A stretch of 50,022 nucleotides of DNA from an uncultured Oscillospiraceae bacterium (GTDB lineage: Bacteria > Bacillota > Clostridia > Oscillospirales > Oscillospiraceae), in the NCBI GenBank assembly GCA_947625965.1, contig CANQQO010000004.1, forward strand, positions 1 through 50,022. Reading direction: 5' to 3'. The position numbers and the translations under genes are program-made. The notes beneath the pieces were generated by a model. That model made no database searches and was not told the DNA's origin. It saw only the letters and a program-made list of their open reading frames with translations. Below, piece by piece: positions 752-34,835 of the stretch. Position 1 is the stretch's first letter; every line of letters starts with the position of its first letter.

Positions 752-1183
752 TCATGGCTCCGCCGCCAGGCTCCACTGGGTGTACTGCACGTCCACGGCG
801 CCTTCCCGGACAGACGTGGCCCGGGACAGGAGCAGGATCAGCAGGTCCAAGGCCACGAAGCCGATCAGCACCGCCGCCACGATTCGCCAGACGCGCTTCG
901 CCCGGCGGTTTTTCTCCGCAAGCTGCTCGTTCAGCCTGGCCAGCTCCTCCGCCACATCCCGCCGGGGCGCGTCCTCTGGGAGCTTTTCCCCCAGCAGGGC
1001 GCTGACGGGGACCTCCAGCACCTCCGCCAGACGGCGCAAGGCGTCCGCGTCGGGGACGGAGAGGGCCTTTTCCCATTTGGAGATAGTCTGCCGGACCACG
1101 TGGAGCCGGGCGGCCAGCTCCTCCTGGGAGAGGCCCCGCTGTTTGCGAAGGGCCTTCAAATTTTCACTGAGCATTTCCGCCAC
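752..1183 (-). CDS. XRE-family HTH transcriptional regulator with C-terminal TM segment
   Basis: ENLKALRKQRGLSQEELAARLHVVRQTISKWEKALSVPDADALRRLAEVLEV. Confidence 0.85.
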   Translation of the reverse strand: MAEMLSENLKALRKQRGLSQEELAARLHVVRQTISKWEKALSVPDADALRRLAEVLEVPVSALLGEKLPEDAPRRDVAEELARLNEQLAEKNRRAKRVWRIVAAVLIGFVALDLLILLLSRATSVREGAVDVQYTQWSLAAEP

Positions 1184-1255
1184 TTCCTTTCCGCTCCCAG
1201 TGTATCACAGGAGCGGAAAAAGGGCAAGCAACGCAAAGAAACATCCCCGCAACGG

Positions 1256-2245
1256 CTACCCATTCAGGCTGTCGATCGCCTCCGCCAGGGGCTCCATGGC
1301 CGCCAGGGCCTGGGACAGGGTGTTTCCCGCCCCGCCCACCTCGATGAGCAGGGCCCCGGGACTCAGGTCCTGATTGAACCGCTGGGCGCACAGGTCCAAC
1401 GGCCTGCAAATGCCGGGCCAAAGGCTTTCCAGCGTCGCCTGGAGCTTCACCGCCAGGGCCAGATTTTCCCGCCAGGCGGGGTAGTTCAGCCCTCCGGCGT
1501 CGGAGCCCATCACCAGCATGAGCTGGGCCGCCTGCGTTCCATTTCCCTGGACGGTATGGGCCACCTGATCGCCGTTGGCGTCCTCCGCCGCGTCTCGGTG
1601 GAGGTCCAGCACCAGCCGGATGGTGGGATACTGGGCCAGATACCCTTCGATGGCCTCCCGGGCGTCCTCGTAGGAGCCGTTGTAGGAGGGGTAGTCGTGG
1701 ATGGACCGGTCGTGGATTACCGCCACCCCCCGTTCTTCCAGCAGCTCCGTCAAGCGGTCCCCCACGGAGAGCATATTGTATTGTTCCTCCAGGCTGTGGA
1801 AGTCAGAGGAGGGGGTGTACTCCCGGCCGGGCTCCTCGGTATAGCTCTCGGTGGTGTGGGTGTGGAGGATCAGCACCCTGGGCGCCGGACCTGTCAGGTC
1901 CAGGTCCAGAGGGGAGAGCAGCAGGGCCGCCAGATCCGGGTCCGCCCCGATCTCGTCCTTGATCTCCACCTTTTCCGCGTCCTGGGCGGAGAACACCGGC
2001 GCGGCCCTGGAGGGGGCGGCGGTCGTGGCCGCCGGCGTGGGCGTGGGTACGGTGGCCGTGGCGGTGGGGATCTCAGCGGGGCGGACCACTCTCCCCGTCT
2101 CCAAGTAGGTCACCAGGGACAGCACCTCCGGCCTGGCCAGCGCCAGGGTCAGGGGGGAGAAAAACCCCGTGGCCGCCAGCCGCAGGACCACAGCGCAGAC
2201 AATGATCGCCGCCCCCAGCCGCAGGCTTCTCCGCTCCTGATCCAC
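1256..2245 (-). CDS. spoIIP: stage II sporulation protein P
   Basis: VLILHTHTTESYTEE motif, N-terminal TM and SpoIIP-like core; GTG start with GGGAGGAGG RBS. Confidence 0.85.
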   Translation of the reverse strand: MDQERRSLRLGAAIIVCAVVLRLAATGFFSPLTLALARPEVLSLVTYLETGRVVRPAEIPTATATVPTPTPAATTAAPSRAAPVFSAQDAEKVEIKDEIGADPDLAALLLSPLDLDLTGPAPRVLILHTHTTESYTEEPGREYTPSSDFHSLEEQYNMLSVGDRLTELLEERGVAVIHDRSIHDYPSYNGSYEDAREAIEGYLAQYPTIRLVLDLHRDAAEDANGDQVAHTVQGNGTQAAQLMLVMGSDAGGLNYPAWRENLALAVKLQATLESLWPGICRPLDLCAQRFNQDLSPGALLIEVGGAGNTLSQALAAMEPLAEAIDSLNG

Positions 2246-2732
2246 CGGTATCCTCCTCCCTTCGCTCCCGCCAGGCCGCCCTGGGCGTCTCCCGGAGCCG
2301 GCGGAAAAACGTCCGCAGCTCCCCGGCGCACTCCTCCGCCAGCACGCCCCCCTCCACCGCCGGGCGGTGGTTGAAGGGAAGCTCGAATAAATTGCACACC
2401 GACCCGCAGGCCCCGTTCTTGGGGTCCGCCGCGCCGTATATCACCCGGGGGATCCGGGCGTTGATGATGGCCCCGGCGCACATGGGGCAGGGCTCCAATG
2501 TCACGTACAGGGCACACTCCCACAGCCGCCAGCCCCCCAGGGCATGGCAGGCCTGGGAAATGGCCTCGATCTCCGCGTGGCCCAGGGCGGTCCGGCCCGT
2601 TTCCCGCCGGTTCCGGCCCCGGCCCACGACATTTCCCTGGCAGACCACCACGCAGCCCACGGGGACCTCCCCGTCCCGGGCCGCCTCCCTGGCCAGAGCC
2701 AGGGCTTGTCTCATATACTCCCGATCCTCCAT
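2073..2732 (-). CDS. tadA: tRNA-specific adenosine deaminase (C-terminal tail overlaps spoIIP)
   Basis: GHAEIEAI...TLEPCPMCAGAIINARIPRVIYGA deaminase Zn motifs. Confidence 0.85.
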   Translation of the reverse strand: MEDREYMRQALALAREAARDGEVPVGCVVVCQGNVVGRGRNRRETGRTALGHAEIEAISQACHALGGWRLWECALYVTLEPCPMCAGAIINARIPRVIYGAADPKNGACGSVCNLFELPFNHRPAVEGGVLAEECAGELRTFFRRLRETPRAAWRERREEDTGGSGAEKPAAGGGDHCLRCGPAAGGHGVFLPPDPGAGQAGGAVPGDLLGDGESGPPR

Positions 2733-2849
2733 GGCGCGCGCCTCCTTTGGGTATCATCATACCCCAAGACGGCCTGTCCGTCAAGGCGTCCCGGCGATCC
2801 TTCCCAAAAAAGCGGCCCTTCGCGCAGTCTGTTTTCCGTGGATCTCGGG

Positions 2850-3188
2850 TCATTCTATCAGCATGGCAGCCAGCAGTACCGCCAGCTCCTGCCGGGTCAG
2901 GGCCTCGGCCCCCCGGTCCGCCGCCAGCCGGCGGGCGGCCCGAAGCCTGTCCGCCACCAGCTTTTCCAGCAGATCGTCCTCCGCAGGTTCCCGGGTCCTG
3001 CCGGTGAGCAGGAAGTCCACCGACACCCCCAGCGCCCCCGCCATTTCCACCAGCGTATCCGCCGACGGCTCCCGCCGTCCCTGTTCATACATTCCCACCG
3101 CGCTGGGGCTGAGCTTCAGCCGCCGGGCCAGCTCCGCCTGACTCATACCGGCTTGCCGCCGCAAGGCCGCGATCCGGGGACCAAGCAT
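2850..3188 (-). CDS. XRE-family HTH transcriptional regulator
   Basis: MLGPRIAALRRQAGMSQAELARRLKLSPSAVGMYEQGRREPSADTLVEMAGALGVSVDFLL; RBS aaaggaggtg upstream of ATG at 3188. Confidence 0.85.
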   Translation of the reverse strand: MLGPRIAALRRQAGMSQAELARRLKLSPSAVGMYEQGRREPSADTLVEMAGALGVSVDFLLTGRTREPAEDDLLEKLVADRLRAARRLAADRGAEALTRQELAVLLAAMLIE

Positions 3189-3342
3189 AAGCGGCACCTC
3201 CTTTTCCGAAATCACCATTCGATTGTCAATAGAATAGCACAAACCGGCGGCAAAATGTGGTGGAATTTGGGCCCCTACACACTTCGCGGGGAAAATGTCC
3301 CGCCCCCGACGGGAACCGCCGCCCTTCGACGCTCTGCGTCCC

Positions 3343-21317: not shown

Positions 21318-21429
21318 GAAACCGCCCCTGTCCCCAAAGGCGCCTCCTTGGACAGAGGGGAGCGGGATATTTTGTAAAAATGTCGCGGTGGACGGTCCTT
21401 CCGTCCGCTACGACGTGGGGACAAAGTCG

Positions 21430-21573
21430 GGCCTTGCCCGCGTTTTGCGCTGCAAAAAGGGTCCCGCCAGTGCACGCACTGGCCGCCGACAGCCTGCCGG
21501 GCTGTTGGATTTGATCTTTCAAGTCCCTCTACCAAAATAAACCCGCCCTAAGGGCGGGTTTATTTTGGCGAAT
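21430..21573 (-). repeat. Family-2 hairpin cassette, diverged single copy
   Basis: Shares ccagtgcacgcactggccgccgacagcctgccgggctgttggatttgatctttcaagtccctc and terminator-like CCAAAATAAACCCGCCC/GGGCGGGTTTATTTTGG with the 22.36-22.99 kb array. Confidence 0.75.
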
Positions 21574-21650
21574 AACCGTAATTTTGATACAAACGACCCC
21601 CCTTTTCGGTTAGGGGGGCACTTTTGCAAAAGTAGGTTCACATGGTGGTT

Positions 21651-22325
21651 TTAATGCCTCTTGACTACTGCGAACATCATTTGCGGAAAATCCGGCTCGA
21701 CTGCGGTCATGCCTTTTTTGACTACATCAAGACCATTTTGCGCCAGTTCTGCTTCAAAGGTTTGGAAATTAACAATTCTACAGGAAGTTCCGGCGATTTG
21801 TACGGTTTTTCCCGAGGGTTCATGGATTCGTTCATTGAGGTCGAATGCCGTGCGGACATCAGTCTGCCGCTCATAGGCACCGTCGCCCATAGTACAGATT
21901 AAGGCAGTTCCAAAGGGAGCTAAATGCTTATGAATGAAGCGATAAAATGCAGTTCGGTCATCGTCCAAAACAAGCATATGAAGAACAGCCACAGCGTAAA
22001 TAAAGTCGAATTTACTGTCAAGCTCTCCGGCAACACAATCAACGACCTGAAAATGCATTGCAAAATCGGGAAACGCTCTCCTGCAAAAACCAATCGCTTC
22101 CGGCGATACATCGGTCGCCAAAAGGTCAAATCCCTGCAAGAGAAGCGGATGCGCGTCGCGCCCCTCGCCGCAGCCGATCTCTAATAGCTTGCTATTAGGC
22201 GAAATGGAAAAGCTGCGAATCGTTTCCGCTACGATGGGGGACGGATCTTCGCTGAACCATTTTAGATCTTGTTCATGGATCTGCCTGAAACGGTCATCAT
22301 AGGCTTCGTAATATTTCCTCTCCAT
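21651..22325 (-). CDS. class I SAM-dependent methyltransferase (lower GC)
   Basis: LLEIGCGEGRDAHPLLLQGFDLLATDVSPEAI; ATG at 22325 with gggagat RBS. Confidence 0.85.
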   Translation of the reverse strand: MERKYYEAYDDRFRQIHEQDLKWFSEDPSPIVAETIRSFSISPNSKLLEIGCGEGRDAHPLLLQGFDLLATDVSPEAIGFCRRAFPDFAMHFQVVDCVAGELDSKFDFIYAVAVLHMLVLDDDRTAFYRFIHKHLAPFGTALICTMGDGAYERQTDVRTAFDLNERIHEPSGKTVQIAGTSCRIVNFQTFEAELAQNGLDVVKKGMTAVEPDFPQMMFAVVKRH

Positions 22326-22357
22326 TTCTATATCTCCCTTATACAAAGTGCTTTTTT

Positions 22358-22986
22358 GGCGGAGAAGGAGGGATTTGTCTCCGTTTTTGCTGCGCAAAAA
22401 CAAAGGACCGGCCAGTGTGCGCACTGGCCGCCGACAGCCCGCCGGGCTGTCGGATTTGATTATTCAAATCCCTCCTAAGGCCAAAATGAAACCGCCCTTA
22501 GGGAGCTTTGTTTTGGCGGAGAAGGAGGGATTTGTCTCCGTTTTTGCTGTGCAAAAACAAAGGACCGGCCAGTGTACGCACTGGCCACCGACAGCCCACT
22601 GGGCTGTCGGATTTGATCGTTCAAATCCCCCCTAAGGCCAAAATGAAACCGCCCTTAGGGAGTTCCGTTTTGGCGGAGAAGGAGGGATTTGTCTCCGTTT
22701 TTGCTGCGCAAAAACAAAGGACCGGCCAGTGTGCACACTGGCCGCCGACAGCCCACTGGGCTGTCGGATTTGATTATTCAAATCCCTCCTAAGGCCAAAA
22801 TGAAACCGCCCTTAGGGAGTTTCGTTTTGGCGGAGAAGGAGGGATTTGTCTCCGTTTTTGCTGCGCAAAAACAAAGGATCGGCCAGTGTGCGCACTGGCC
22901 GCCGACAGCCCACTGGGCTGTCGGATTTGATCGTTCAAATCCCCCCTAAGGCCAAAATGAAACCGCCCCTAGGGCGGTTTCATTTT
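22358..22986 (-). repeat. Family-2 tandem array: four units, period 157-158 bp, each with tRNA-Ser 3'-end fragment, terminator-like hairpin and four further hairpins
   Basis: ggcggagaaggagggattt recurs at 22358, 22515, 22672, 22829 and (true tRNA) 22987. Confidence 0.95.
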
Positions 22987-23077
22987 GGCGGAGAAGGAGG
23001 GATTTGAACCCTCGATACCCTTTTGGGGTATACACGATTTCCAATCGTGCGCGCTCGGCCAGCTACGCGACTTCTCC
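22986..23077 (-). tRNA. tRNA-Ser (GGA), CCA encoded
   Basis: GGAGAAGTCGCGTAGCTGGCCGAGCGCGCACGATTGGAAATCGTGTATACCCCAAAAGGGTATCGAGGGTTCAAATCCCTCCTTCTCCGCCA with long variable arm. Confidence 0.95.
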
Positions 23078-23178
23078 AGGTCCAGCCCGAATATAATACC
23101 TTATTCGGTGCCGTTTGTCAAGCCTTTTTTTCGGCTTTGACGAAAACCGCCCCGGACTTTTCGGCCCGGGGCGATCCG

Positions 23179-34624: not shown

Positions 34625-34672
34625 AAATAAGACGGAGGCACGGCGGGGGCGAAATCCCCCGCTGTGCCTCCG
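34625..34672 (-). terminator. riboswitch expression-platform terminator
   Basis: GGAGGCACAGCGGGGGATTTCGCCCCCGCCGTGCCTCC followed by T-rich tract on minus strand. Confidence 0.8.
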
Positions 34673-34674
34673 CT

Positions 34675-34835
34675 GAATGTACCTGAGAGATTCCCCGCGA
34701 GAAAGCGGGTTGCACCTTCGGCGTGGGGGCAAGCCCCACTCTACGGAGTATCGTCCTGGCCCGGTCCTTTTGCCTGAGAGTTTCCGCGTTCCCCTTCGGC
34801 GCCAAATCCGGTCTCTCCCGGGCCATTCATCCGAT
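34675..34835 (-). promoter_or_regulatory. tandem glycine riboswitch
   Basis: Minus strand: GGGAGAGACCGG...GCCGAAGGGGAA...AAACTCTCAGGCAAAAGGACC (aptamer 1), ...GCCGAAGGTGCAA...AATCTCTCAGGTACA (aptamer 2). Confidence 0.93.

Follow-up and report, generated by a model that had tools for sequence, protein, structure and literature searches.

Directly 3' of the tRNA-Ser(GGA) gene in the stretch of DNA analysed here (50,022 nucleotides from an uncultured Oscillospiraceae bacterium; hereafter, the window) lie four tandem units of 157, 157, 157 and 158 bp. They occupy the minus strand from 22356 to 22984, with unit starts at 22356, 22513, 22670 and 22827. What are these units, and what keeps their stems from changing? 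Units of 157-170 bp contain no gene, and the RNA-type fold z-score of the array region is -27, far beyond chance.

Read in the sense of the tRNA, the order of an element is: the tRNA, T, A', H1-H2-H3 and A, often with a second terminator after A. T is a terminator-like palindrome abutting the CCA of the tRNA, and A' (in the window array, GGATTTGAA..) is an inverted copy of the tRNA T-arm; T, T' and A' form one continuous palindrome with the tRNA end. H1, H2 and H3 are hairpins, in the window array GACAGCCC/GGGCTGTC, GGCCAGTG/CACTGGCC and TTTTTGC/GCAAAAA, respectively. A repeats the tRNA 3' end in direct orientation ~100 nt beyond A', and possible pairing between A' and A, termed P1, would enclose H1-H3. 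Altogether an element measures ~110-130 nt plus one tRNA-end copy. The features of the array are as follows, all on the minus strand:

23093..23121, minus: predicted sigma-70-like promoter, TTGACA-17-TATTAT, just upstream of tRNA-Ser(GGA) (consensus scan, 11/12)
22986..23077, minus: host tRNA-Ser(GGA) gene of the array, CCA encoded (ARAGORN and Rfam RF00005)
22954..22985, minus: T hairpin of unit 4, the tRNA-proximal unit, AAATGAAACCGCCC/GGGCGGTTTCATTTT, abutting CCA (sequence)
22838..22944, minus: unit 4 from A' to the start of the direct copy A (covariance model R1, 88.5 bits)
22934-22944, minus: A' of unit 4, inverted T-arm copy (R1)
22902-22924, minus: hairpin H1 of unit 4 (R1)
22880-22901, minus: hairpin H2 of unit 4 (R1)
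about 22853-22876, minus: hairpin H3 of unit 4 (R1)
22828..22848, minus: direct copy A of the tRNA 3' end in unit 4, CAAATCCCTCCTTCTCCGCCA (C56-A76; 21/21 identical)
22681..22787, minus: unit 3, A' to A (R1, 88.8 bits)
22524..22630, minus: unit 2, A' to A (R1, 85.1 bits)
22367..22473, minus: unit 1, A' to A, with the A copy ending at ~22357 (R1, 90.1 bits)
21651..22325, minus: methyltransferase-like gene separating unit 1 from unit 0 (Pfam Methyltransf_12/_23/_25, lowest E 2.9e-13)
21426..21575, minus: unit 0, a diverged fifth copy (R1, 51.7 bits; blastn E 2.6e-22)
21377..21415, minus: putative terminator hairpin beyond unit 0, similar to native tRNA terminators of the same genome (CGTCGTAGCGGACGG..; sequence comparison)

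The T hairpin is intact in units 4 and 0 only; in unit 0 it lies at about 21532-21565 and is preceded by a decayed tRNA end, TTCGCCA. The methyltransferase-like gene, located between tRNA-end copies, looks like cargo trapped in the array. Units 1 and 3 have variants in common (TTAT/CTCC), as do units 2 and 4 (TCGT/CCCC), suggesting duplication of a two-unit block.

The initial annotation, based on the four units, held that substitutions fall in loops or linkers and spare four stems, and called this direct evidence of constraint. The stems it quoted indeed do not differ among the four units, and the loops show just the variation described: over a 107-column alignment of the units, 2 of 80 paired columns are variable as compared to 8 of 27 unpaired ones (Fisher p = 2e-4). 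Two details had to be reassigned. The ggccgcc/ggccacc change, ascribed to a linker, affects the closing pair of the GGCCAGTG hairpin, where a G-U wobble is kept. The putative stem GGATTTGA..TCAAATCC is not family-wide: its first arm is A', the family-wide partner of which is A ~100 nt further on, and the hairpin pairs A' with a linker that fits by chance in this Ser version. While the conclusion of stem constraint was right, four units are on their own weak evidence, and one of the four stems was mispaired.

The larger fact, beyond the reach of a single window, is that the units belong to a dispersed tRNA-linked family. A blastn-type search of 99 relatives located the same layout behind other serine tRNAs, and the H1 motif (up to 3 mismatches) was found in 59 of the 99, with the reversed-pattern control almost empty. 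Copies lie behind tRNAs for Arg, Tyr, Val, Pro, Lys, Ala, Trp, Gln, Glu, Leu, Asp, Gly, Cys, His and Ser (at least 15 isotypes) as well as behind tmRNA, and the architecture shared among isotypes was recovered from tRNA-end repeats alone, in loci of related genomes. A sequence-only search yielded 68 core-motif occurrences, 48 of them with a tRNA or tmRNA gene directly upstream on the same strand; the rest include at least 4 behind another unit and 6 at contig or locus edges. Relatives carry up to about a dozen copies per genome, and the genome that contains the window has 11, located with covariance model R1 at four loci: tRNA-Ser(GGA) (4+1), tRNA-Pro(CGG) (1), tRNA-Arg(CCG) (1) and an array with tRNA-Trp ends (4). 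This last array (G000 contig C52, 11414-12036; loci L202 and L261) has four units with a period of 170, adjoins a recombinase gene with a Zn-ribbon recombinase domain, and may have been separated from its tRNA by an integrative element.

The distribution of the family is patchy. Exact motif matches in named genomes come nearly all from rumen or gut Oscillospiraceae MAGs. Among 297 genomes of the order with at least 90% completeness, matches were detected in 10, i.e. in 5 of 145 genera, and the strong ones fall in two genera of the same family; a stricter pattern matches 6 of 301 genomes of the family. Of the tRNA-Ser(GGA) loci read in the genus, no more than about half have an element, and different species have elements at different tRNAs. 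A second type of core, consisting of A', an outer stem around H1 (GGCGG..CCGCC), GTGG and a further hairpin followed by A, is seen at L083, L172, L198, L196, L197, L121 and L124 and reaches other families of the order.

Aligning these further copies bore out the contrast between stems and loops for recent copies: in ten sets, 14 of 740 stem columns (1.9%) and 51 of 372 loop and linker columns (13.7%) are variable (p = 2e-14), a contrast somewhat favoured by the structure having been folded from the same copies. Out of 13 variable base pairs, 11 are still paired via G-U, one has changed on both sides and one is broken (11 G-U versus 1 broken, binomial p = 0.003). In a plain MAFFT alignment of 51 elements, two-sided changes occur at 20 of the 22 consensus pairs. 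When 112 copies (108 distinct) are aligned to the model, 97.8% of cells are paired and two-sided changes are found at 21 of 22 pairs, with 439 two-sided cells as compared to 88 +/- 9 in shuffled and at most 65 in slid controls; since the model alignment is fitted to the structure, the plain MAFFT counts test this more independently. The initial annotation had named stems as variable as loops as the finding that would speak against it, and the wide family comes close to this, with a mean column entropy of 0.91 (paired) versus 1.07 (unpaired); nevertheless, the stem changes compensate each other. As judged by these alignments, stem sequence turns over almost as fast as the loops with pairing kept, and the constraint is therefore on pairing and not, family-wide, on the sequence of the stems. 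The core has a conserved GGTGG loop and conserved linkers. In tRNA-sense pairs, G-U exceeds A-C by 30:14 (p = 0.011), a modest excess that hints that the folded strand is the tRNA-sense one.

How closely do the arms follow the adjoining tRNA? An unanchored search of 167 tRNA loci returned 63 with both a direct (at least 11 nt) and an inverted (at least 9 nt) copy; the direct copies usually begin at the T-loop CGA or TCGA and the inverted ones usually end in GAA(C). In an anchored measurement on 75 elements, where the inner limit is set by construction, identity of A to the tRNA rarely reaches upstream of T55/C56. At the other side the match of A to the local tRNA extends into the acceptor strand (mean 8.6/11, often 21/21 overall), and in fresh cases the A copies repeat the tRNA 3' end directly over 21-22 bp. 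The match of A' is limited to the T-arm, usually over 9-17 nt: complementarity is ~97-100% at positions 54-62 (in part by construction of the search) and good over T54-C65, but poor in the CCA-proximal part, the acceptor portion scoring 4.0/11 versus a null of 3.2. A single A' copy, that of L022, is perfect over all 23 nt and starts with TGG opposite CCA.

The tRNA-Pro(CGG) element of the window's genome combines two tRNAs. While its A is identical to tRNA-Pro at 21/21 positions, its A' fits tRNA-Trp at 20/23 as compared to 16/23 for Pro, a fit to Trp with a chance of ~0.001 by tail shuffling. In its core it closely resembles the C52 Trp array, all 14 differences lying outside the stems, and a native-type terminator comes after the element. 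The Trp-like A' together with the related core indicates that T, A' and the core apparently moved from a Trp site and that A came from the target; this is the one clear case of such tRNA-Trp memory. T is borne by the element: its hairpins differ from those behind element-free tRNAs, the motif ACCY..RGGT being present in T of 27 of 75 elements and behind 2 of 83 element-free tRNAs.

No insertion was caught between near-identical strains; for tRNA-Val(CAC), a related locus (69% identity, same downstream gene) is without the element. Non-element genes between tRNA-end copies are found at L044, L130 and L137 in addition to the methyltransferase-like gene of the window, which indicates, as do the viral-contig copies described below, that element loci attract other insertions too. 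At the tRNA-Gln locus L130 (about 850-3250), the 2.4 kb between two elements encodes a 424-aa protein without a Pfam family, the C-terminus of which is similar to a restriction-endonuclease fold, making it a possible defence cargo. Several copies on viral contigs have the element behind an apparent prophage attachment-site copy of the tRNA end; such elements probably belong to the host side of these contigs, and carriage of the element by phage is accordingly disfavoured where the tRNA end is visible.

Patchiness, the Val locus without an element, tandem accretion and the mismatch between the Pro locus and its Trp-like A' suggest an insertion element. Taking them together with the anatomy, the tRNA association, the local tRNA match and the covariation, we infer that the array probably consists of tandem copies of a small insertion element that is non-autonomous and specifically targets tRNA and tmRNA genes at their 3' ends. 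Such an element would carry T, the core H1-H3 and an A' that complements the T-arm from T54 to about C65, and would insert directly after CCA, with the tRNA 3' end (C56-A76) recurring at the far side as A; since the tRNA end is recopied and the element brings its own T, the tRNA would stay intact and retain a terminator. In the tRNA-sense single strand A' would pair with A (P1) around H1-H3, and selection would maintain this folded strand; most likely, a recombinase supplied in trans would recognise it or use it as substrate, in the way that integron attC and CTX-phi attP are used as folded strands. Repeated insertion, or unequal exchange at the A repeats, could then generate tandems, and other DNA could become trapped between A copies. 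Within this explanation we lean slightly towards the fold working as DNA in mobility rather than as RNA. The order of parts would fit a hypothetical dumbbell or rolling-concatemer origin of A-T-A'-core. Against an insertion element stand the lack of a shared recombinase among the genomes examined, the failure to catch an insertion between near-identical strains, the restriction of the Trp memory to one clear case, the modest G-U excess obtained with an alignment fitted to the structure, and the usual local match of A', which an arm carried by the element does not explain unless through target choice or later correction.

A host regulatory or processing RNA, co-transcribed with the tRNA, the A' of which pairs with the T-arm and acceptor strand of that tRNA or with the downstream A and so controls folding, trimming or decay of the tRNA, would be in line with the near-complete complementarity to the local T-arm (again partly a product of the search), the strong covariation, the G-U preference on the tRNA-sense strand and the predicted tRNA promoter. 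We nevertheless deem it unlikely: elements are absent from about half of the genus's tRNA-Ser(GGA) loci read and sit at different tRNAs in different species, tandem copies and cargo genes between copies speak against it, and the element's own terminator lies upstream of A', so most transcripts should end before the core. Mutation bias is quite improbable as a substitute for selection. Template switching at quasi-palindromes would repair the arms and extend the terminator palindrome into the tRNA to yield A', accounting for the local A' match, the continuous T-T'-A' palindrome with the tRNA end and the perfect 23 nt of L022; it leaves unexplained a conserved core at many unrelated tRNAs, the conserved GGTGG loop and linkers, and the direct A copies. 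Moreover, template switching yields perfect palindromes, and the persistence of 11 G-U pairs over 1 broken pair in recent copies counts against it.

Two further readings depend on an enzyme. In a tRNA-primed retroelement A' would be the primer-binding site and copying from the tRNA primer would renew the matching arms; A' is after all the complement of a tRNA 3' end, the full-length A' of L022 begins with TGG opposite CCA, and the arms match the local tRNA. The CCA-proximal part is, however, usually missing from A', and no RVT_1 reverse transcriptase was detected in seven element-rich genomes (G000, G001, G054, G018, G011, G309 and G342; completeness 92-100%), while element-free genomes do contain it. 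We thus rejected reverse transcriptase as the mobiliser, and this very improbable reading is largely refuted, unless a divergent reverse transcriptase exists. Least credible of all is a REP-like or IS200/IS605-type element moved by a Y1 transposase: the units are small, palindromic, gene-free and dispersed, but a strict tRNA-end target with a 21-22 bp direct repeat is foreign to that class, and Y1_Tnp is absent from six of the seven element-rich genomes, for which reason, the one exception aside, this mobiliser was rejected as well. Tyrosine integrases occur in all genomes checked, with or without elements, and are hence uninformative; among the neighbour genes inspected for several elements, no integrase or recombinase was found consistently beside them. 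In G309, a gene for a 291-aa tyrosine recombinase (L255, 2247-3122, minus strand) starts ~120 bp beyond an element; seen once, it is a possible partner.

Returning to the insertion element, we tentatively, and with considerable doubt, propose a broader interpretation: a new class of mobile elements may use the universal tRNA T-arm as its address, with the inverted and direct copies re-forming the T-arm stem of the target tRNA in the folded strand, one element spreading across isotypes and tmRNA, the arms coming to match the new host tRNA, and tandem arrays and cargo islands being founded in the process. If true, target choice would be solved in an unusual way, by a gene-free structured element that is found behind most tRNA isotypes and has an arm matching whichever tRNA adjoins. 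Such an element would also offer a testable example of selection on a single-strand fold that belongs to no known RNA family, and may explain how tandem arrays build up at tRNA loci and later trap other genes.

Among known systems, the E. coli tyrT repeat with its rtT RNA comes closest. Tandem repeats reportedly lie there directly 3' of the tRNA gene, each with a copy of the tRNA 3' end, and these repeats are known at one tRNA. Tandem units directly 3' of a tRNA gene that contain the tRNA 3' end are thus common to both systems; our elements differ in occupying many tRNAs and in that each unit has a terminator and a core of three hairpins besides the inverted copy of the T-arm. The 178-bp tyrT repeats and rtT RNA (Rfam RtT) are attributed to Bosl and Kersten 1991, as cited in PMC11623569. 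With integrative elements and prophages that target tRNA genes by means of tyrosine or serine recombinases, the elements share insertion at the tRNA 3' end, an intact tRNA and a flanking direct repeat of the 3' end that begins in the T-loop; they differ in the lack of an integrase, a size of 110-130 nt, their own terminator, the A' arm and the many tRNAs used. The 3' ends of tRNA genes are classic landing sites of prophages and islands, where a direct repeat from T-loop to CCA is typical (integrase sublocations) and a given integrase is normally confined to one tRNA. Integron attC sites and the folded CTX-phi attP similarly have inverted arms that pair within one strand around a variable structured middle, and attC sites also form short arrays with occasional cargo in between, but the arms of our elements are tRNA T-arm sequence and not attC core sites. 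MITEs, REP/BIME and ERIC are likewise short, gene-free and dispersed with strong hairpins; the elements described here differ in that their target is nearly always a tRNA or tmRNA 3' end and their arms complement the local tRNA. Joining traits of dispersed palindromic repeats and tRNA-end insertions, they may deserve a class of their own.

We found no description of such elements in the openly accessible literature, and the family is apparently undescribed so far. Rfam searches at the gathering threshold (window) and with permissive E up to 5 (eight element loci) returned no family for the element, and the RtT model in particular had no match at these settings in either set. Matches above threshold were to tRNA and riboswitches only and lie outside the element; at 34665-34830 on the minus strand, the window carries tandem glycine riboswitch aptamers, with two RF00504 matches of 65.1 and 38 bits.
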